Shown here piece by piece: positions 52,790 through 64,000 of a DNA stretch of 64,000 nucleotides. The stretch's first letter is position 1; every line of letters starts with the position of its first letter. A program made the position numbers and the translations under genes. This DNA is from Bacteroidaceae bacterium (lineage in GTDB: Bacteria; Bacteroidota; Bacteroidia; Bacteroidales; Bacteroidaceae), in the NCBI GenBank assembly GCA_017429525.1, contig JAFROT010000013.1, positions 1 through 64,000 of the forward strand, in the 5' to 3' direction. The notes below the pieces were generated by a model. It worked only from the letters and a program-made list of their open reading frames with translations, made no database searches and had not been told where the DNA came from.

Positions 52790-54475
52790 TCAGAAATTGA
52801 AGTTATAGGAAAGCGTGAAGCCTCGGGTCGCAGGAATCCAGCGGCAGACGCCGCCCGTGCAGTTGAAGCCGGCACGTGTGCGCCCGTAGGCCGCCTGCAG
52901 GCGATGGGCACCTACGTTGTAGGTGGCTCCGAACTGGTAGTAGTGGTTGTGGGTCGTGCCGACGTTATACATGTCGCTGATGGTGAACATCCAATGGGGA
53001 TTCATGCTGAGTTCGAGCAAGCCGAAAGCCCAGTCGCCCTCGTCGTCGGGCGTAAACAGGTATTGTCCCTCGCCGCGTAGCGTCAGCTTCTTATTGATTC
53101 GCCATTTGGCTTCGCCGATGACGATGTGGCTGTTGATCATGCCTCCCTCGCCTTCCACGGCAGTCTTGTTGTAGCGCTGGTACATGTACATCAGGTTGAG
53201 CTTCCAGTCGGCCGTGAGTTTCTTGTCCAGCTGAACGTTGACGTCCTGATAGTAGGTGTCGTCGCCCCACTTCCAGAAGGGTGAGCTGTAGCCATTGCTG
53301 CCCATGGTGCGGTTTTCGAGCGGACGCGGGCGCGTCTCGATGGCATGAACGTGCGAGAAGTTGACTTTCACGGTCGTACCATATTTGCCCCCTAATGGCG
53401 TGCTGCGCTTGAAATTGTAGCCGAATTCGGCCTGATAAGCCCATTCGCCATCAGGATTGGTGGCGTAGGGATAAAGGGCTGCGAGCGCATACGTATGGTC
53501 GAGCGTGAAGGCCGGCAGATGATTGATTATCGATGAGGTGCCCGGTACGGAACGGCTGCTGCGGAACGACATATTGTCGCTGCGCTTGGCCTGCAGCAAG
53601 AGGCTCATCCCACGTTTGGAGTAGCTGCCCGAGAGCATGGCCACGTAGCCAGGGCGATAGATGAAACTATTGTCGAAGCATGGGTCCTGCGACTTGCGGG
53701 CATACTCGGCCAGGAGATTCCATCCGCCCGTCTGGAAACGCGCACGGACGTCGAAAGCATGCACCATCGTCGGCAGATTGAGGCGATGAGTAGGGTCGGC
53801 AAAGATATCTTCCTCCTCTTCGTATTTATTCACATAGGACCCCCCGACCGTGAGGAAGGAACCGCGGCTGGCGAGCGCAGGTATCCACTCGTCGAGGCTC
53901 AGCTCGGCATCAGCACCACTCACCCATGATTCGTTATGCTGCCAGTAGCGACGCTGGCGGCCGCTGAGCACCTTCAGCGCCACGCCCTGGAATGGATTCC
54001 AGGCTACATGGGCGCCTCTGAGCGAGTTGTCTATGCCGAGGCTGCGCTCCTCGTAGGTTCGGAGGATGAAGCCCGAGCCGAACTGCTCGTAGAAGTCGCC
54101 CAGGGTGACAGCACCGTTCTTCCAATGCGCCTTCGCATAGAAATGCGCCAAGCCCCAGCCGTCGAAGTCCGACTCATAGCCGGGCAGGGGGTACTCATTC
54201 CATTCGAGACGCGCGCCAGCGTCGACATAACGGCTCTGCAGACGGAGGTCGGCATAGGTGTTGGCCAACGCCCACTCATCATACTTCTGGGCACCAATGG
54301 CCTTGTCCTCCTGAGGCACGAGCACATCGGCTTGGATGCTGCCGCTGAGGGTGGCACGGTCGCGCTCTTCCTGAGCATAAGCCCTAAGGCTTCCCGCTCC
54401 GAGGAGAAGGAGGATGACGGCGCCCCTGCAGATCCGTCGGCTAAACGAAGGCATACTGATCAGAAAATCATTCAT
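52790..54475 (-). CDS. DUF6029 outer membrane protein
   Basis: A 561-residue protein with a long signal region (AVILLLLGAGSLRAYAQ). The mature protein is rich in alternating aromatic residues typical of a beta-barrel (ANTYADLRLQSRYVDAGARL, GWGLAHFYAKAHWKN, ending FTLSYNFNF), so it is probably an outer-membrane barrel. DUF6029 members are Bacteroidetes-specific and uncharacterised. Operon position between a TlpA-like thioredoxin and Omp28 is a recurring arrangement as I recall it. Met 54454 is a possible alternative start. Confidence 0.8.
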   Translation of the reverse strand: MNDFLISMPSFSRRICRGAVILLLLGAGSLRAYAQEERDRATLSGSIQADVLVPQEDKAIGAQKYDEWALANTYADLRLQSRYVDAGARLEWNEYPLPGYESDFDGWGLAHFYAKAHWKNGAVTLGDFYEQFGSGFILRTYEERSLGIDNSLRGAHVAWNPFQGVALKVLSGRQRRYWQHNESWVSGADAELSLDEWIPALASRGSFLTVGGSYVNKYEEEEDIFADPTHRLNLPTMVHAFDVRARFQTGGWNLLAEYARKSQDPCFDNSFIYRPGYVAMLSGSYSKRGMSLLLQAKRSDNMSFRSSRSVPGTSSIINHLPAFTLDHTYALAALYPYATNPDGEWAYQAEFGYNFKRSTPLGGKYGTTVKVNFSHVHAIETRPRPLENRTMGSNGYSSPFWKWGDDTYYQDVNVQLDKKLTADWKLNLMYMYQRYNKTAVEGEGGMINSHIVIGEAKWRINKKLTLRGEGQYLFTPDDEGDWAFGLLELSMNPHWMFTISDMYNVGTTHNHYYQFGATYNVGAHRLQAAYGRTRAGFNCTGGVCRWIPATRGFTLSYNFNF

Positions 54476-54484
54476 GGTCGGCGC

Positions 54485-54997
54485 TTATTTCTTGTCTTGA
54501 GGCTGATCGTCGGTCACGAGTTCGCGCACCTTCTCGATGAGTTCTTCTTCGGCTCCATCGGTGTAGCCGTTGTGCTTGTAGACCACGTTGCCCTTGCCGT
54601 CGCAGATGACGACATAGGGAATCAGCTCACCGCCAAACGTGCGGCGGAACTCACTATTGGGGTCGAGCAGCACGTCGTAGGTCCAACCGTGATTGTCGAC
54701 AAGAGGCTTCACCTTATTGATGTTCTGTGCCCGGTCAATGCTTACGGCAAAGACCTTGACGCCCGTCTCCTCCTGCCATTCCTCGTAGACCTCAGCTATC
54801 GCGTCGAGCTCACGATTGCAGGGTTTGCACCACGTGGCGAAGAAGTCGATGATGAACGGTTTCCCGCCATTGGACAACGTATCGACGCGGATGCTCTTGC
54901 CACTGATGTCCTTAAGGGTGATTTGCGGCAGGCGCTGGGCCCAAGCTCCGCTGGCCATTGAAAGGAGAACGGAAAATGCGATAAGAATTCGTTTCAT
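54485..54997 (-). CDS. TlpA/ResA-like periplasmic thioredoxin
   Basis: A 170-residue exported thioredoxin with signal peptide (MKRILIAFSVLLSMASGAWAQ). The active site is FFATWCKPCNREL (Cys about 56 and 59), and a cis-Pro loop occurs in GELIPYVV. Such proteins reduce disulfides in the periplasm. It is the first gene of the operon with DUF6029 and Omp28, behind a promoter. Confidence 0.88.
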   Translation of the reverse strand: MKRILIAFSVLLSMASGAWAQRLPQITLKDISGKSIRVDTLSNGGKPFIIDFFATWCKPCNRELDAIAEVYEEWQEETGVKVFAVSIDRAQNINKVKPLVDNHGWTYDVLLDPNSEFRRTFGGELIPYVVICDGKGNVVYKHNGYTDGAEEELIEKVRELVTDDQPQDKK

Positions 54998-55957: not shown

Positions 55958-57079
55958 TTATTCTTCTGTTCGCTCGCAGATCATCCTCGCCATATCATTC
56001 AGCGCCAGGCATTGATGGCGGGCGATGGTGAGGCGCTCGTTGTGGTGCTGCCAGGGGGCAAGGATGAGGAGTTGGCCGCGAGCACAGGCTTCCATGCGTT
56101 GGCCGCCGGGCTTGGCGAGGTCGGTGAAGCCGTTTTCCTGCAGGATGATGAGAGGGAGACCTTCGGCGAAGGCGGCGCGCATGACGGCTTTCTCTCCAGG
56201 CGAGATGCTGGGCGATACCAACACGGCTCCGCTGCGGGCTTGGACGAGGAACCACGCCGTACGCTCGGCTATCTCCTCGGGGGTGAGGCGGCGCGAGCAT
56301 TGCACCTGTAGGCGCACGGGGCGCTCAAGGAGGAAGCGGTTGCCGATGGCCGAGAAGGTTTGCTGGCCTATGGTGAGGCCGCGCTGCACGCGGAAGAGGT
56401 CGGGCTGCTCGCGCTTCATCAGCAGGCGGCGGGGATTGTCGCGGAGGTAGTCCAGCCAGCGCTGCAGTTGTCCTTCGCGCAGGAGGAGCTTGTCGTTGAA
56501 GCCGCGGGCGAAGAGCAGCCCGTGGCTGCGGTCCTCGCGGGGGCGGGGGTGAGGAGGGGGTTGGGTTTGTTGCGGAGGTTGGGTTTGTTGCGGGGGTTGG
56601 GTTTGTTGCGACTGAGTCGCAACAGACGGGACAGAGGGGAAAGACGGGACGGAGGGGGCAGACGGGGCTGAGGGGAAGAGGGCGCGGTAATGGCGGTTGC
56701 AGCCGGTCTTGAAGCCTCGGATGATGCGGCTGAGGTCGCAGTCCATTTTCTCGCGCACGAAGAGGATGCCGTGCAGGTGGTCGGGCATCATTTGCAGGGC
56801 AATGATCTCCACCTGGGGGTGATAGCGGGGAATGCCCCACCATTCCTCTTCTACGCGCTGCCCGAGGGCTGAGAGCATCATCCGCGGCGCGTCCTCGCTG
56901 CCGGGCTCGGCATGGCTGCGCCCTTTCACCTCGCCGAAGAGGGGACGACGGCCCTCGATGGTCATCGTCAACATGTACATCATCCGCTCTGTGTAGTCGT
57001 GCCCCACACAGCGCCGCAGCATCGATGGTTTCTTCTCGCCGGCGAATGCTTTCTGGCTCTCATATACTTCCTTTTTCAT
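55958..57079 (-). CDS. RAYT-like Y1 transposase fused to a DprA/SLOG-like domain
   Basis: A 373-residue protein from ATG 57079, which lies 21 bases past a TATCTTTG box; the longer ORF adds 53 residues upstream of that promoter. The Y1 (HUH) domain has MPDHLHGILFV with His-x-His for metal binding, and YLRDNPRRL with the probable nucleophilic Tyr in the Y-x3-N-P arrangement of REP-associated tyrosine transposases. A Pro/Ser/Gln-rich insert made of 18-bp repeats (TQPPQQ three times) separates them. The C-terminal part (SGAVLVSPSISPGEKAVMRAAFAEG, here cut as SGAVLVSPSI and AVMRAAFAEGLPLIIL) resembles a SLOG/DprA Rossmann domain, unusual for this family. RAYTs cut single-stranded DNA at hairpin (REP) sequences. 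Confidence 0.7.
   Translation of the reverse strand: MKKEVYESQKAFAGEKKPSMLRRCVGHDYTERMMYMLTMTIEGRRPLFGEVKGRSHAEPGSEDAPRMMLSALGQRVEEEWWGIPRYHPQVEIIALQMMPDHLHGILFVREKMDCDLSRIIRGFKTGCNRHYRALFPSAPSAPSVPSFPSVPSVATQSQQTQPPQQTQPPQQTQPPPHPRPREDRSHGLLFARGFNDKLLLREGQLQRWLDYLRDNPRRLLMKREQPDLFRVQRGLTIGQQTFSAIGNRFLLERPVRLQVQCSRRLTPEEIAERTAWFLVQARSGAVLVSPSISPGEKAVMRAAFAEGLPLIILQENGFTDLAKPGGQRMEACARGQLLILAPWQHHNERLTIARHQCLALNDMARMICERTEE
56560..56610. repeat. 18-bp tandem repeat inside the transposase gene
   Basis: GTTGGGTTTGTTGCGG-type units occur three times, encoding TQPPQQ on the minus strand. They are followed by a 17-base palindrome-like TTGCGACT-G-AGTCGCAA (56606-56622). Confidence 0.8.
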
Positions 57080-57100
57080 TCGCGATGGGTTTTCTGGCGG

Positions 57101-57108
57101 CAAAGATA
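57101..57108 (-). promoter_or_regulatory. -7 box for the transposase gene
   Basis: CAAAGATA on the plus strand reads TATCTTTG on the minus strand, 21 bases before ATG 57079. The -33 box is not clear. Confidence 0.6.
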
Positions 57109-57246
57109 GTGAAAGATATGTTATGACGGAGTTTATTTTGAAATTATTTCCAAAACGGCTATAACGAAAACGAGCGGGAAGGGGGTTCCTTCTCGCTCGT
57201 TGTGTAGGGGTTTTAGCCATCTGAGAGCAAGCTCTCATGGCGCTCG

Positions 57247-58536
57247 CTAACCGCCAAAATTATCGAAGCGGATCATGTCGTCTTCGACGCCGAGGCTGTG
57301 GAGCAGGTCGAGGACGGTCTTGGCCATCATGGGAGGACCGCAGAGGTAGTACTCGCAGTCCTCGGGCTCCTCGTGCTGCTTGAGGTAGGTGTCGCCCATA
57401 ACGGGTGCCACGAAGCCCGGAGTGTACTTGATGCCTGCTGCATCGGCCTTGGGATCGGGACGGTCGAGTGCGAGGTGGAAGTGGAAGTTGGGGAACTCCT
57501 TATCCAGCTGCAGGAAGTCGTCGAGGAAGGGCACCTCCTCGAGGGCACGTGCGCCGTAGAAGTAGTGCATGGGACGACGGCGATCCTCGTCGCTGACGCC
57601 GTGACCCTTGAGCATGTGCATGATCTGCGCACGCAGAGGGGCCATACCGGCACCACCGCCGACCCAGATCATCTCGCGACCGGTGCCGTACTGGGGACGG
57701 AACTCGCCGTAAGGGCCAGACATCGTGACCTTGTCGCCGGGCTTCAGCGAGAAGATGTAGCTGGAGGCGATACCGGGGTTGACGTCCATGAAGCCGGGGC
57801 CTTGGTCCTTCGGCTTGAAGGGCGGCGTGGCGATACGCACGTTGAGGGTGATGATGTCGCCCTCGTCGGGGTAGTTGGCCATGGAGTAGGCACGGATGGT
57901 GGGCTCGGGGTTCTTGCACTTGAGCGGGAAGAGGCCGAACTTCTCCCATGCGGGCAGATAGGTGTCGCCGATGAGGCTCTTGTCGAAGTCCTTGTCGTAG
58001 TCGATGCAATCGAAAGCCGGGATGCGGATCTGAGCGTAGGAACCGGGCTCGAAGTCCATGTGCTCGCCCGGGGGCAGGGCCACTTTGTACTCCTTGATGA
58101 AGGTAGCGACGTTCTTGTTGCCGATAACGGTGCACTCCCATTCCTTGACGCCGAGCACGCTATCGGGCACTTTGATGCCGAGGTCGCCCTTGACCTTGCA
58201 CTGGCAGCCGAGGCGCCAGCCTTCCTTGATTTCCTTGCGGGTGAAATGGCCTTTCTCGGAGTCGAGAATCTCGCCACCGCCGTCTACGACCTGACACTTG
58301 CATTGGCCGCAAGAGCCCTTACCGCCACAAGCGGAGGGGAGGTAGACGCCCTCGCCAGCGAGGGTGGAGAGTAGGCTTGCACCCTGAGGCACGGACAGCG
58401 TGTCCTTGCCGTTCATTGTGATGGTGACATTACCGCTCGGTGAGAGGTAAGCCTTGGCGACAAGCAGCAAGACGACCAGCGCCAGGATGATGGCGAGGAA
58501 GACCGCGATGCTTGTGAGAATTAAAGATGTATTCAT
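57247..58536 (-). CDS. nqrF: Na+-translocating NADH:quinone reductase subunit F
   Basis: A 429-residue membrane-anchored flavoprotein and the electron entry point of the Na+-NQR complex. N-terminal helix (ILTSIAVFLAIILALVVLLLV), then a 2Fe-2S ferredoxin domain with CGGKGSCGQCKC, and a ferredoxin-reductase FAD/NADH domain (RAYSMANYP for FAD, GGGAGMAPLRAQI and CGPPMMAK for NADH). It ends in FDNFGG as is usual. It is the last gene of nqrABCDEF. A palindromic element fills the gap to nqrE and sits 5 bases from its ATG. Confidence 0.96.
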   Translation of the reverse strand: MNTSLILTSIAVFLAIILALVVLLLVAKAYLSPSGNVTITMNGKDTLSVPQGASLLSTLAGEGVYLPSACGGKGSCGQCKCQVVDGGGEILDSEKGHFTRKEIKEGWRLGCQCKVKGDLGIKVPDSVLGVKEWECTVIGNKNVATFIKEYKVALPPGEHMDFEPGSYAQIRIPAFDCIDYDKDFDKSLIGDTYLPAWEKFGLFPLKCKNPEPTIRAYSMANYPDEGDIITLNVRIATPPFKPKDQGPGFMDVNPGIASSYIFSLKPGDKVTMSGPYGEFRPQYGTGREMIWVGGGAGMAPLRAQIMHMLKGHGVSDEDRRRPMHYFYGARALEEVPFLDDFLQLDKEFPNFHFHLALDRPDPKADAAGIKYTPGFVAPVMGDTYLKQHEEPEDCEYYLCGPPMMAKTVLDLLHSLGVEDDMIRFDNFGG

Positions 58537-58541
58537 AATTG

Positions 58542-58807
58542 AAGACCCACCCCCTGACCCCTCCCGTCAGGGAGGGGAGCGGCTAGCGCTTGGAAGTTTA
58601 TAGGGTCATTCTTTTAATGATTAATGATTAGACTTTGTTTAACGTGACACCCCGCAGGCTCTCCCCTCCCTGACGGGTGACTACAAGGGAAAGACTGAAT
58701 GTCTTTACCGAAGTAGTCTTCTCAGTGCTCAACGAATGCAAGACGGTTTATCCGGGTCGAAGCAGTTGGCGCTAAGCACGTGAGGGCAGGGGTCGGGGGT
58801 GGGTCTT
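58542..58807. repeat. Palindromic element copy A, nqrE-nqrF gap
   Basis: About 265 bp with terminal inverted repeat AAGACCCACCCCC ... GGGGGTGGGTCTT. Inner arms are CCTCCCGTCAGGGAGG and CCTCCCTGACGGG. It shares the conserved block AGCGGCTAGCGCTTGGAAGT, then ATAGGGTCATTCTTTTAA, with copies B and C. It is longer than those because of an extra ~100 bp (58679-58785). It runs to the first base of the nqrE stop codon. Confidence 0.9.
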
Positions 58808-59433
58808 TAGAGATTTAAACCCGAGAAGCACATGAAGGCCATGGCCATCAGGCCGACGGTGATGAACGTGATGCCGAGGCCCTGGAGGGGACGGGGGACG
58901 TCGGTGTAAGCCATCTTCTCGCGAATGGCAGCCAGGCAGGTGATAGCCAGGAGCCAGCCGATACCTGAACCGAGGGCGTAGGCCAGAGCGTCCCAGATGG
59001 AGGTGATGGCCTGCGAGTTGGTGTCGGGCATGGTGACGCGCTGTTGCATGAAGAGCGAGGCACCCATGATGGCGCAGTTCACGGCAATCAGGGGGAGGAA
59101 GATGCCGAGGGCGTTGTAGAGCGAAGGGCTGAAACGCTCGACGATCATCTCCACGAGCTGCACGATAGCGGCGATGACGGCGATGAAGAGGATGAAGGAG
59201 AGAAAACTCAGGTCTACACCCTGGACCAGGCAGTCGGGACCGAGCACATACATTTGCAGAACGTAGTCCACGGGCACGGTGATGAGCAGCACGAAGGTGA
59301 CTGCCACGCCGAGGCCGAAGGCTGTCTTCACGCTCTTGCTGACGGCCAAGTAGGAGCACATGCCGAGGAAGAACGCGAAAATCATATTGTCCACGAAAAT
59401 AGAGCGGACGAATAGGCTAATTAGATGTTCCAT
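58807..59433 (-). CDS. nqrE: Na+-NQR subunit E
   Basis: A 208-residue inner-membrane protein with six helices ([35 protein letters not shown]-like region, [37 protein letters not shown]). NqrD and NqrE form an inverted-topology pair around an Fe centre and take part in Na+ movement. Length and motifs are standard. The plus-strand complement of its stop lies at the edge of repeat A. Confidence 0.95.
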
Positions 59434-59594: not shown

Positions 59595-60218
59595 CTATTG
59601 TAACTCCTTGTTATATGCCCGATGTGCCCAGATGACACAACCGACGATGATGAGGGACATGGCAGGCATGGTCATCATGCCGTTGTTCATGTAGCCGTGC
59701 TCATAGCACCACTCGGGAACAACCTGGAAGCCGAAGAGCGTGCCGCTGCCGAGGAGCTCGCGCACGAAGCCTACGATGACAAGGATGATGGCATAGCCGA
59801 TACCATTGCCGATACCGTCGAGGAACGAAGGCCAGGGCTTGTTCATCATGGCAAAAGCCTCCAGACGACCCATGAGGATACAGTTGGTGATGATCAGACC
59901 CACGTAGACGGAGAGCTGTACGCTGACGTCGTAGGCGAAGGCCTTGAGGACCTGGCTAACAATAGTCACCAGCGCGGCCACCACGACCAGCTGCACGATG
60001 ATGCGGATGCGGTTGGGGATGGACTTGCGGATGAGGGAGATAATCAGATTGGAGAAGGCGGTGATGATGGTCACGGAGAGACCCATCACGATGGCGGGCT
60101 CGAGCTGTGCCGTGACAGCCAGCGCAGAGCAGATGCCGAGCACCTGAACGACGACGGGGTTGTTCAGATTGAGCGGACTGACCAGTGCCTCTTTGTTTGC
60201 TTTGGATAATAGTGCCAT
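59595..60218 (-). CDS. nqrD: Na+-NQR subunit D
   Basis: A 207-residue inner-membrane protein with six helices (VVQVLGICSALAVTAQLEP, AIVMGLSVTIITAFSN, IIVQLVVVAALVTIVSQVL, ISVYVGLIITNCILMGR-type segment). It is paired with NqrE. Normal length. It lies 31 bases downstream of nqrC, with a TTTACTATTT repeat in the gap that reaches into the nqrC 3' end. Confidence 0.95.
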   Translation of the reverse strand: MALLSKANKEALVSPLNLNNPVVVQVLGICSALAVTAQLEPAIVMGLSVTIITAFSNLIISLIRKSIPNRIRIIVQLVVVAALVTIVSQVLKAFAYDVSVQLSVYVGLIITNCILMGRLEAFAMMNKPWPSFLDGIGNGIGYAIILVIVGFVRELLGSGTLFGFQVVPEWCYEHGYMNNGMMTMPAMSLIIVGCVIWAHRAYNKELQ

Positions 60219-60237: not shown

Positions 60238-60255
60238 ATTTACTATTTACTATTT
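60238..60255. repeat. TTTACTATTTACTATTT word at the nqrC 3' end
   Basis: Complement of the AATAGTAAATC words at 14101-14131. It covers the last codons and stop of nqrC. Confidence 0.6.
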
Positions 60256-61431
60256 CTGTCCGCAGCAAGCCTTGTCGCCATCGCAACCGGGCTTTCCGCA
60301 GGAACCACTTTTATCACACTGGCCGCTCTTGCAGCAGTCGTTACCGCTCTTGCACTTGTGGGCTGCAGCAGCCTCTTCCTGACAACCGCCACAACCTTCT
60401 GCTTTCTCGCAACCTTCAGCCTTGGCACAGCCTTCAGCCTTGGCGCAGGGAGCAGCTTTCTCGCATGTAGCGCAAGGGCACTCCTCACGAGCGCAGCACT
60501 TAGCATCGCTGGCGCAGTTGCAAGCCTCGTCGCCGCAGCTGCCGTCCTTGCAGGCGCACAGCTTCTTCTCGGCACAAGTGCAGTCTGGCTTGTCGCAGCA
60601 CTTCTCAGCTTTCTGGCAGCAGTCGCCTGCGGGCTTTGCACCGCCAAGGGCGTTCACGTACTGTTGGATGCCCGTGAGCACCATCTCGCCGACACCCTTA
60701 GAGGTCAGCGTGGCACCCGTGACGCCGTCAACCTGGGTCTCGCTTTCGCTGGCGCCCTTCTTGACAACAGTCAGCGCGACATTGCCATCAGCACCCATGA
60801 CGGGACGACCGATGAACTGCTCTTGGAACTTAGCCTCCTTGATGAGAGCACCCAGACCTGCAGTCTCGCTCTCATGGTCGAAGTAAGCGCCAAGCACTTT
60901 CTGCAAGTCGGGCGTGACGGCGACATAGCCCCAGAGGCCGCCCCAGAGGCCACGGCCCTTGAGGGGGAGGACGAGGGCGTCAGCGCCATCAGCAGTCTTT
61001 GCCTTGTAGACGGGGAACTTCTCGCCAATCTCCTTGGTCTCGACGTCGAAGGCATCAGCGCCATCGATGACCTGACCGTCGGGAGTCAGCACACAAGTCT
61101 CCTGGATTAATTCGTTGTACTTGCCTTCAACCTCGCTCTTGGCCAGACCGCGAACGTTGAGCGAAGCAAGTATCTGAGATTTCTTATCGATAGCCACGTT
61201 GGCATCCTGCTTCGACTTGAGCGCGCTGCTCACGAAGGCCAGCAGGAAAGCTACGAGCACCACCATGACTGCTGCATAGCAGATGGTGTAGACATTGCCA
61301 TTGGTGTTGATGCCCTTGGATTTCTCTTCCTTGATATGGGAAGTATCAGCGCCACAGATAGGGCACTTGTCGGGCATTGATGCGGCTTCGAAAGTCTGGC
61401 CGCATTGACTGCATATAAATTTCTTTGCCAT
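60250..61431 (-). CDS. nqrC: Na+-NQR subunit C with zinc-ribbon N-domain and Cys-rich tail
   Basis: A 393-residue protein, some 130-150 residues longer than typical NqrC. Residues 1-35 form a CxxC ... CxxC rubredoxin/zinc-ribbon-like module (FICSQCGQTFEA, MPDKCPICGAD). A membrane helix follows at about 48-70 (CYAAVMVVLVAFLLAFVSSAL), then the normal periplasmic FMN domain with TGAT at 238-241, where Thr241 should carry the covalent FMN. Residues 269-393 are an added tail with 29 Cys in 125 residues (GDCCQKAEKCCDK, CACKDGSCGDEACNC, AKAEGC repeats, ending ACCGQK). The usual function, passing electrons in the complex, is expected to be kept; the role of both additions is unknown. Confidence 0.92.
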   Translation of the reverse strand: MAKKFICSQCGQTFEAASMPDKCPICGADTSHIKEEKSKGINTNGNVYTICYAAVMVVLVAFLLAFVSSALKSKQDANVAIDKKSQILASLNVRGLAKSEVEGKYNELIQETCVLTPDGQVIDGADAFDVETKEIGEKFPVYKAKTADGADALVLPLKGRGLWGGLWGYVAVTPDLQKVLGAYFDHESETAGLGALIKEAKFQEQFIGRPVMGADGNVALTVVKKGASESETQVDGVTGATLTSKGVGEMVLTGIQQYVNALGGAKPAGDCCQKAEKCCDKPDCTCAEKKLCACKDGSCGDEACNCASDAKCCAREECPCATCEKAAPCAKAEGCAKAEGCEKAEGCGGCQEEAAAAHKCKSGNDCCKSGQCDKSGSCGKPGCDGDKACCGQK

Positions 61432-61436
61432 ATCTG

Positions 61437-62603
61437 TTACTTGTTTAGTGCGCGTTTTGCACGTTTTGAGATGTTACGGCTGACGAAGCAGTAGTCGATC
61501 AGCGGAGCGAAGAGGTTCATGAGCAGAATGGCGAGCATCATACCCTCTGGGTAACCGGGGTTGAGCACACGAACCGTGATGGCCACGAAACCGATGAGGA
61601 AGCCATAGACCCACTTGCCACCTTCGGTGCGAGCGCTGGTGACAGGATCGGTAGCCATGAAGACGGCGCCGAAGCAGAAGCCACCGAGCACGAGGTGCTG
61701 ACAAGCGTCGAGGGGCGAGAGGCCGAGGGCGTTGTACAGCCAACCCGTGAGGGCGCCGCCTACGAAGACGCTCAGCATGGTCTTCCATGAGGCAACGCCT
61801 GTCCAGAGGAGCAAGCAAGCGCCAAGGGCGATGGCGATGACGCTGGTCTCACCGATAGAACCGGGAATGAAACCGCACACCTGGTCGCAGAAGCTCGTGG
61901 AGAGGGCTGCACCCTGAGCGATTTCGCCGAGGGGCGTAGCAGCCGAGAACGTATCGGGCACATCGAAGCCGAGGCCGAGGATGGTGTTCTGAGCTACCCA
62001 GACGCTGTCGTCGCCCGTCATGACGGAGGGGTAAGAGAAGAAAAGGAACGCGCGCGTGATAAGGGCGACATTGAAGATGTTCATACCCGTGCCGCCAAAG
62101 ATCTCCTTAGCGAAGATAACAGCGAAGGCTGTAGCGATGGCGAGCATCCACAGCGGCGTGTTGACGGGCACGATCATCGGGATGATGATACCCGAGACGA
62201 GGAAGCCCTCGTGGATCTCCTCGTTCTTCCACTGCGCTACGGTGAACTCGATGCCCAGACCGACGATGTAGCTGACGATGATCTTGGGCAGCACAGCCAG
62301 GAAGCCGAACCAGAACATGCCCCAGAAGGAGGCATTCTCCAGTTGGCCCGCAGCGAGCGCATTCTGGTAACCTACGTTGTACATACCGAAGAGCAACGCA
62401 GGCACAAGCGCGATGACGACGAGCGACATGATGCGCTTGCTGTCGATGGCATCGTGCACGTGGGTGCCAGCACGTCCGGCCGTCGTGTTGGGCACGAAGG
62501 CAAACGTGTCGAAGCCATCATAAAGCGAACGGAAGGCGTGGAGCTTGCCACCCTCTTCGAAGTTCGGCTTTATCTTGTCGAAAAATTTTCTAATTGCGTT
62601 CAT
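61437..62603 (-). CDS. nqrB: Na+-NQR subunit B
   Basis: A 388-residue inner-membrane subunit with about ten helices (MSLVVIALVPALLFGMYNVGY, FLAVLPKIIVSYIVGLGIEF, GFLIGFVAITVRVLNPGYPEG). It carries a covalent FMN on Thr and the riboflavin, and it is the main Na+ channel subunit. The FMN motif reads SAAT (TFSAATPLG) rather than the usual SGAT; the acceptor Thr is kept. The nqrC start is 5 bases downstream, so the two are coupled. Confidence 0.95.
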   Translation of the reverse strand: MNAIRKFFDKIKPNFEEGGKLHAFRSLYDGFDTFAFVPNTTAGRAGTHVHDAIDSKRIMSLVVIALVPALLFGMYNVGYQNALAAGQLENASFWGMFWFGFLAVLPKIIVSYIVGLGIEFTVAQWKNEEIHEGFLVSGIIIPMIVPVNTPLWMLAIATAFAVIFAKEIFGGTGMNIFNVALITRAFLFFSYPSVMTGDDSVWVAQNTILGLGFDVPDTFSAATPLGEIAQGAALSTSFCDQVCGFIPGSIGETSVIAIALGACLLLWTGVASWKTMLSVFVGGALTGWLYNALGLSPLDACQHLVLGGFCFGAVFMATDPVTSARTEGGKWVYGFLIGFVAITVRVLNPGYPEGMMLAILLMNLFAPLIDYCFVSRNISKRAKRALNK

Positions 62604-62766: not shown

Positions 62767-64000
62767 TTACATATTCTCTTTTCTAAGGATATCCAATCCC
62801 TCGCGCACGATGCGTTGCAATTCCAGTTTTGAACTGTCGACGAACTCAGCGATGGCGAAGTCCTCGGGAGCAACCTCGTAGATACCCAGAGCCTCCTGAC
62901 GGTCGATGTCGCCAGCGATGATGGCCTTAACGAGGTAACCGGCGTAGATGTCCATGGGGAACACGCGGTCGTACTCGCCCGACATGATCATGTGGCGCTC
63001 GCCGCCCTTGACGCGGGCATCCATCGTGTACTCCGTCTTCTTAGGCTTCAGCCAGCTGAAGTAGCTGCGACTGGTGGAGAACTCCTTGAAGCGGGGAGCA
63101 ATCCATCCAAGCATCTCGTAGACATCATCGCCCTCGGGGATTACGGTAACCTCCGTTGCGTGAGCTGCAAGCCAGCCGTTCTTCGAGGTCTTCACGCCCA
63201 CCATGGGATTGCCGTTGATGATGCGGAGACTCTTGCTCTCGTCAATCTGTCCGGCCAATACTGCAGCGAGGGGCTGACCCACGAGCACCTTAGCATACTT
63301 CGGAGCCTTCACTTCGCTACCGGCGACGGCGATAGTACGGGTCAGGTCGACCTTACCCGTGAGAGCCAGACGACCGACGAAGATTACCTCTTCTGCACCC
63401 AGCGTCCAGACGACTTCGCCCTTGTTGATGGGGCTGACGTGATTGATCTGCACGCCTACGTTGCCAGCAGGAGCGGGACCGTCGAAAACGGTGACGGTGC
63501 AATCCTTGGCAGCTGTCAGGGCGGGAACCGTCTGCTTGGCGCTGATGCCGAGGTTGACCTTGGCGATCTTAGCCAGCAGCGAGAGACCAGCCTGGAACTC
63601 CTTCTCCTGCCCTTTGAGGACGAACTCGAAGTCGGCAGCCAGCGGCATGCTGTTGAAAGCGCTCACGAAGATGGCCTTGGGCTTGTCCTCGGGGTTCGCC
63701 ACAACGTCATACGGACGCATGCGGAAGAAGCCGAAGAGACCGCTTTCGAGCAGCAGCTTCAGCGGATCCTTCTCGGTGAAGGAAACGGCCTCCTGCTTGC
63801 CGTCGGCATCTACGCGAACGCTCATCACCTTACGGCGCTCACCGCGCTCGACCAGAGCCACGGTGCCACTGACAGGCGAAACGAACTTCACTTCGGGATG
63901 GTTCTTGTCAACGAACAAGGCATCCCCGACCTTGACAGCATCACCTTCTTTGACGACAACTTTGGGCTTCATGCCGCAGAAATCATCGGGGACCAATGCG
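62767..64000 (-). CDS. nqrA: Na+-NQR subunit A (partial, 5' end outside window)
   Basis: The reading frame runs off the window end at base 64000; about 411 codons are seen. The apparent start at 63996 is a TTG within the conserved sequence ALVPDDFCGMKPKVVVKEGD, so it is not the real start. The biotin-carboxyl-carrier-like N-terminal fold is partly visible (GDALFVDKNHPEVKFVSPVSG), with the long NqrA core after it. NqrA is the peripheral quinone-binding subunit. It would be the first gene of the operon. Confidence 0.95.
   Translation of the reverse strand, partial: ALVPDDFCGMKPKVVVKEGDAVKVGDALFVDKNHPEVKFVSPVSGTVALVERGERRKVMSVRVDADGKQEAVSFTEKDPLKLLLESGLFGFFRMRPYDVVANPEDKPKAIFVSAFNSMPLAADFEFVLKGQEKEFQAGLSLLAKIAKVNLGISAKQTVPALTAAKDCTVTVFDGPAPAGNVGVQINHVSPINKGEVVWTLGAEEVIFVGRLALTGKVDLTRTIAVAGSEVKAPKYAKVLVGQPLAAVLAGQIDESKSLRIINGNPMVGVKTSKNGWLAAHATEVTVIPEGDDVYEMLGWIAPRFKEFSTSRSYFSWLKPKKTEYTMDARVKGGERHMIMSGEYDRVFPMDIYAGYLVKAIIAGDIDRQEALGIYEVAPEDFAIAEFVDSSKLELQRIVREGLDILRKENM

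Follow-up and report, generated by a model that had tools for sequence, protein, structure and literature searches.

Among respiratory pumps the Na+-NQR has been studied well, and the question raised by this locus is what its NqrC subunit does with a cysteine module at its beginning and with a tail that is long and rich in cysteine. The nqrC gene lies in the window, by which we mean the whole stretch of 64,000 nucleotides that was analysed, and its features are collected in Table 1. The surrounding genes were named from sequence and gene order, and they form a complete nqrA-B-C-D-E-F run in that order on the minus strand. The cofactor cysteines of NqrD, NqrE and NqrF are kept, at positions numbered as ligands, in the available excerpt of PMC10739449, for P. 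bryantii (NqrD), for V. cholerae (NqrF) or for both (NqrE). Therefore, the extra parts of NqrC sit on a pump that, judging from the encoded proteins, should work.

Table 1. Positions in the window of the nqr genes and of the parts of the nqrC product.
Feature	Position	Strand	Residues, basis or remark
nqrA	62767..63996	-	Sequence and position; touches the window edge, start uncertain
nqrB	61437..62603	-	Sequence and position
nqrC	60250..61431	-	393 aa plus stop; profile matches
Rubredoxin-like N-domain (predicted)	61327..61431	-	Residues 1-35; C7/C10/C23/C26 (CxxC-x12-CxxC); RUBY_RBDX, AF2, Foldseek
Transmembrane helix (predicted)	61222..61296	-	Residues 46-70; AF2 helix, and the single NqrC helix in excerpts on published NQR structures
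NqrC core with FMN_bind domain	60646..61311	-	Residues 41-262; profiles; best structural match 3lwx
TGAT flavinylation motif	60709..60720	-	Residues 238-241; FMN expected on T241
Cys-rich tail	60253..60627	-	Residues 269-393; 125 aa, 29 Cys
Tail module M1	60445..60603	-	Residues 277-329; in nqrC of 25/139 genus genomes
Variable repeat middle (KAEGC-type)	60361..60444	-	Residues 330-357; alignment of 20 tails
Tail module M3	60253..60360	-	Residues 358-393; in nqrC of 29/139 genus genomes
nqrD	59595..60218	-	Cys at 30 and 113, the P. bryantii ligand positions
nqrE	58807..59433	-	Cys at 26 and 120, ligand positions in both P. bryantii and V. cholerae
nqrF	57247..58536	-	Cys at 70, 76, 79 and 111, the V. 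cholerae ligand positions

The core is an ordinary NqrC by its profile matches, as the original prediction had it, and covalent FMN and Na+ pumping are predicted for it. It matches the NqrC profile TIGR01938 with 164.4 bits (cut-off 144) and FMN_bind PF04205 with 57 bits (cut-off 22); the narrower PRK05346 models listed fall short of their own cut-offs on the nqrC product. From the TGAT motif, we take T241 to be the counterpart of Thr225 in V. cholerae NqrC, and Thr225 carries the FMN there (PMC10739449). The closest solved structure to the core is 3lwx from Parabacteroides distasonis, and the core fold, transmembrane helix, TGAT motif and operon are all like those of the NqrC of Na+-NQR (TIGR01938; 3lwx and V. 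cholerae 8a1u and 7xk3). However, matches to the solved NqrC chains cover core residues only (70-262 for 3lwx and 140-248 for 7xk3), and NqrC in solved NQR structures consists of one helix and one flavin domain. 3lwx is a 199-residue construct in which the native ends of P. distasonis NqrC are not visible. P. bryantii NqrC, given as 23.2 kDa in an excerpt of PMC8516057, would be too small to hold a rubredoxin domain or a tail on a normal core. Searches of the open literature, judged by the papers listed, gave no description of either addition to NqrC.

The N-terminal CxxC...CxxC module had been called a zinc ribbon. The four cysteines are present, but a plain zinc ribbon is not the best name for it; by profile and predicted fold, this is a rubrerythrin-type rubredoxin-like domain, which is a more specific assignment. 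Residues 1-38 scanned alone match Pfam RUBY_RBDX (PF21349) with 39.1 bits against a cut-off of 26.5, a match that goes unreported in the scan of the full-length protein, whereas a plain zinc ribbon (Zn_ribbon_8) was rejected at 24.1 bits, below its cut-off of 34.4. In the genus relative L084, the N-domain reaches 58.3 bits with RUBY_RBDX and matches the rubrerythrins 1ryt and 1b71 by sequence at E of about 2e-8. The AF2 model of residues 1-40 has a mean pLDDT of 88.3 (block means of 79-95 in the N-domain), and Foldseek with this model finds 1ryt and 1b71 as best matches (TMq 0.68, prob 1.00) with E values of only 0.009 and 0.013 for this short domain, none at or below 0.001. The domain is therefore like the rubredoxin-like domain of rubrerythrin in cysteine spacing, profile and predicted fold, and unlike rubrerythrin in being fused to a membrane pump subunit without the diiron ferritin-like domain. 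Such a domain makes iron and electron transfer as possible as zinc. The window's genome also encodes a reverse rubrerythrin, named by sequence (L002:1060-1614), that has the rubredoxin domain first and a start similar to that of the NqrC N-domain. A rubrerythrin gene, possibly this one, may be the source of the fused domain.

The four N-domain cysteines are invariant across 20 aligned rows, and the domain has a dN/dS of 0.076 (bootstrap 0.014-0.183). CxxC-x12-CxxC is present in 74 of the 120 genus rows, 73 of them among the 118 rows of a rough genus tree, on which the domain changes state at least 27 times between presence and absence. Where present it is under selection, yet it looks dispensable. 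In two pairs of loci with core DNA 90-94% identical, L043 with L068 and L039 with L069, one member has the domain and the other lacks it. Among the matches listed, at least 11 other genera of the family (g6, g7, g8, g9, g15, g18, g20, g21, g22, g24 and g29) have some of the fusion type, in which the match begins at query residue 1-5 and continues through the core; the sequences were inspected for g7, g8, g21 and g24. An order-wide draw of 247 genomes has the fusion in at least four genomes of three other families; in a draw of 198 genomes from the phylum, searched at a strict E of 1e-12, only the window's own genome had it.

The tail is confirmed from the open reading frame at the length, cysteine count and in-frame position originally predicted, and the metallothionein-like composition holds as well: 23% of its residues are cysteine, none is F, Y or W and one is I, L, M or V. 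In 395,988 bases of the window's genome (the window and 17 other stretches), surveyed through 1489 mechanically called ORFs of at least 50 aa, it has the 60-residue stretch richest in cysteine (17). The runner-up has 11, in an apparently spurious frame, and others have 8-9, including a ferredoxin-like protein. A genome-wide cysteine-rich habit was accordingly rejected, and the tail stands out as an outlier as far as 396 kb shows. The CC, CxC and CxxC motifs that had also been pointed out are there (5, 4 and 2), but they are nothing special; shuffles of the same tail give means of 6.5, 5.0 and 3.9, and the counts were set aside as evidence. Searches with the tail returned no Pfam family and no PDB chain at E 10. 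AF2 confidence is low across the tail, which fits disorder without proving it. An odd number of cysteines is found in 21 of the 37 tails that have at least 12 (core C113 is outside the count), and this disfavours pairing within the tail alone.

The distribution of the tail was followed in the 139 genomes of the genus, including the window's, of which 133 match the NqrC protein at E 0.001; 122 nqrC loci were read, one per genome. Module M3 has matches in 30 genomes. In 29 the match lies in nqrC; in G064 it is weak (E 1e-4) and outside nqrC, at a place where no cysteine-rich ORF of at least 60 aa is listed. M1 has matches in 26 genomes, 25 of which have it in nqrC (partially in G137), while the match in G042 is weak (E 4e-4) and lies outside nqrC. 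M1 occurs without M3 in L019, L031 and partly L026. In 399 genomes taken family-wide, M3 is present in seven, all of the same genus, and in none from the other 29 genera. The close named relatives are MAGs whose labels read Prevotellaceae, Bacteroidaceae or Bacteroidales, including Prevotellaceae bacterium UBA4372. By their titles they come from the reticulum of goat and yak, the rumen of sheep and buffalo, the omasum of goat and roe deer, and from red deer and reindeer; those with RUG labels are presumably rumen genomes. The genus, ruminant-associated and of Prevotellaceae type, is putatively the UBA4372 group. Other lineages of the genus carry cysteine-rich tails that are dissimilar to that of the window, which points to repeated selection for cysteine. 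NqrC tails of this kind apparently originated several times in the genus. Genus g24 of the same family (L143-L144, L149-L151 and L153) has short NqrC tails with CC and single cysteines, possibly a simpler form of the same trend.

Of the 29 nqrC loci with M3, 20 entered the tail alignment. The others were L008 (near-identical to L007), L032 (frame-broken) and seven without a full M1 by pattern (L020, L021, L025, L027, L030, L034 and L036). In M1, 13 of the 14 majority-cysteine columns hold cysteine in all 23 sequences and the remaining one in 14 of 23, and in the other columns the majority frequency averages 0.85. The six cysteine columns counted in M3 hold cysteine in 27 of 27 sequences, with a mean of 0.92 in the other columns, so that 19 of the 20 counted columns of both modules are invariant. 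Across the 20 chosen tails, invariant columns hold 25 of the 29 cysteines of the window's tail versus 29 of the other 107 aligned residues. TGC and TGT both occur in five of the six M3 cysteine columns, and in two of these the two codons alternate often; therefore, it is the amino acid that is conserved. The dN/dS values are 0.081 for M1 (0.044-0.133), 0.063 for M3 (0.020-0.120) and 0.103 for the core (0.082-0.129), which points to purifying selection on M1 and M3 comparable to that on the core. These are simple Nei-Gojobori/JC values pooled over all pairs, which are non-independent, with median dS of 0.53 (N-domain), 0.99 (core) and 0.82 (M3), and those for M1 and M3 do not cover the repeat middle. 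For the whole tail, 22 close pairs pooled give 0.188, three times the 0.060 of the core.

The original prediction had looked to relatives for the tail and for conservation of its cysteines, and both are found in them. It had also named a frameshift or assembly error at about 60627, or unconserved cysteines, as signs of a drifting repeat product. Neither was seen, but the middle of the tail is indeed a drifting repeat, and the tails of some close relatives are shortened or replaced. In the alignment, this repeat middle varies freely in length, in frame. Near relatives also differ by gaps of 25 codons and of 50 codons (L004/L020 and L007/L025). The near relatives L020 and L025 have lost pieces of the tail, and L022, L026 and L033 have lost most of it, with seven, eight and seven tail cysteines left, respectively. 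Between L007:1501-2676 and L019:1492-2487, the core is 98%, the flanks 92-93% and the alignable tail 67% identical; from this comparison, recombination appears to have swapped the tail among close relatives. The loss or replacement of parts of the tail in close relatives counts against a vital role. At least 10 changes of tail state fall on the genus tree. This quick tree took 118 of the 122 nqrC rows (L116 and L118 were too short, L122 was cut and L032 was frame-broken), 43 of its 112 inner branches are open and it carries a long-branch warning, with L123 beside the tailed clade, and so its change counts are rough. In L032 (G111:C1), nqrC runs over two overlapping frames, either by a frameshift or by an assembly error.

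What might these additions do? Our tentative preference, held at somewhat less than even confidence, is that the tail acts as a metal-thiolate sink, flexible and metallothionein-like, next to the FMN domain in the periplasm. It is favoured because of the 23% cysteine, the absence of aromatics and of a confident fold, and the odd cysteine numbers. NqrC would work as a pump subunit with two added predicted metal sites. The cytoplasmic N-terminus would be a one-metal Cys4 rubredoxin-like knuckle, possibly from a rubrerythrin gene, and the periplasmic C-terminus a flexible tail in which two conserved cysteine modules are linked by an expandable cysteine repeat. The tail would take up soft metal ions (Zn, Cu(I) and possibly Cd) as metal-thiolate clusters in the style of metallothioneins, and would thereby buffer or sequester metal at the Na+ pump, close to the FMN domain as it moves. 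What the sequences show directly is the domain identity, the conservation and selection, the spread over lineages and the lack of a confident fold; we infer the membrane side (from NQR structures), the reduced thiols, the metal binding and the benefit to the cell. In V. cholerae, the flavin domain of NqrC lies in the periplasm and moves back and forth between NqrD-E and NqrB while the helix tilts (PMC10643135); therefore, the tail is expected in the periplasm by the FMN domain. The rubredoxin domain would face the cytoplasm, the side on which the ferredoxin domain of NqrF works. The originally predicted sidedness of both ends thus agrees with published NQR topology, as far as the excerpts describe it.

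Metallothioneins have no aromatics, about 30% cysteine and a flexible chain, according to an excerpt of PMC5454826. The tail is like them in its high cysteine, lack of aromatics and lack of a confident fold, and unlike them in that it has no Pfam or PDB match, is part of a respiratory subunit and is expected in the periplasm. Unlike stand-alone metallothioneins, it is fused to NqrC, M1 and M3 having one weak match each outside nqrC in the 139 genomes.

Disulphides can form in the periplasm, where the tail is expected, and its cysteines might instead cycle or crosslink as a thiol redox buffer or disulphide-linked scaffold that protects or tethers NqrC and holds no metal. A thioredoxin-fold protein encoded at 54485-54997, in the same stretch as nqrC, would suit such a role. 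We think it unlikely; the odd cysteine counts (with the core cysteine uncounted) and the near absence of hydrophobic residues for a disulphide-rich fold speak against it, as does the habitat of a strict anaerobe, in which free thiols would be plausible. It is about equally improbable that slippage and recombination made a weakly constrained repeat extension, tolerated at a free C-terminus and with little or no function. The in-frame length changes of the middle, the losses or replacement in L022, L026, L033 and L019 and the number of tail-state changes are what it would lead one to expect, but the core-like dN/dS of M1 and M3 and the invariant cysteines written with either codon are not. An assembly or frameshift artefact is scarcely credible even though the relatives are mostly metagenome assemblies and one nqrC is split over two frames. 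M3 recurs in nqrC across 29 genomes that stem from several projects and more than one ruminant host, under purifying selection in frame, and assembly error was rejected on the recurrence of the tail, with its conserved cysteines, in other assemblies.

A reading that is compatible with the metal sink is electron transfer, which we regard as rather doubtful. The Fe(Cys)4 site of the rubredoxin domain would take electrons from the NqrF ferredoxin domain or feed soluble acceptors such as rubrerythrin, and the tail could carry a redox-active metal on the other side. The rubrerythrin-type profile and predicted fold, the sequence match of the relative's domain to rubrerythrins, the invariant cysteines with their low dN/dS and the reverse rubrerythrin in the same genome all agree with this, and the domain sits on the helix that tilts in the NQR cycle (excerpt of PMC10643135). 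However, the frequent gains or losses of the domain suggest that the pump works without it, the P. bryantii subunit appears too small for it (excerpt of PMC8516057) and the bound metal could be Zn. A broader version, to which we give quite a low probability, is that NqrC has been rebuilt with three metal or redox stations, namely a cytoplasmic rubredoxin iron, the FMN and a periplasmic metal-thiolate tail. Through its ends, electrons could pass between Na+-NQR and soluble partners in rumen bacteria, and Na+ pumping would be linked to the metal or thiol status of the periplasm.

A rubredoxin fusion found throughout a family, together with tails of apparently repeated origin, would place extra metal sites on both membrane faces of a rumen-bacterial pump, and metal handling or electron branching at NQR would become directly testable. 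The tails are also a natural series showing how cysteine-rich, possibly metal-binding sequence may arise by repeat expansion on a fixed scaffold.

Some neighbours of the operon may be mentioned. The gene directly downstream of nqrF (55958-57238) encodes a protein with PQQTQ repeats and a weak match to an IS200-like transposase (20.9 bits, under the cut-off of 23). Near the operon, at 52790-54997, the thioredoxin-fold protein (AhpC-TSA/Redoxin) adjoins a DUF6029 protein.
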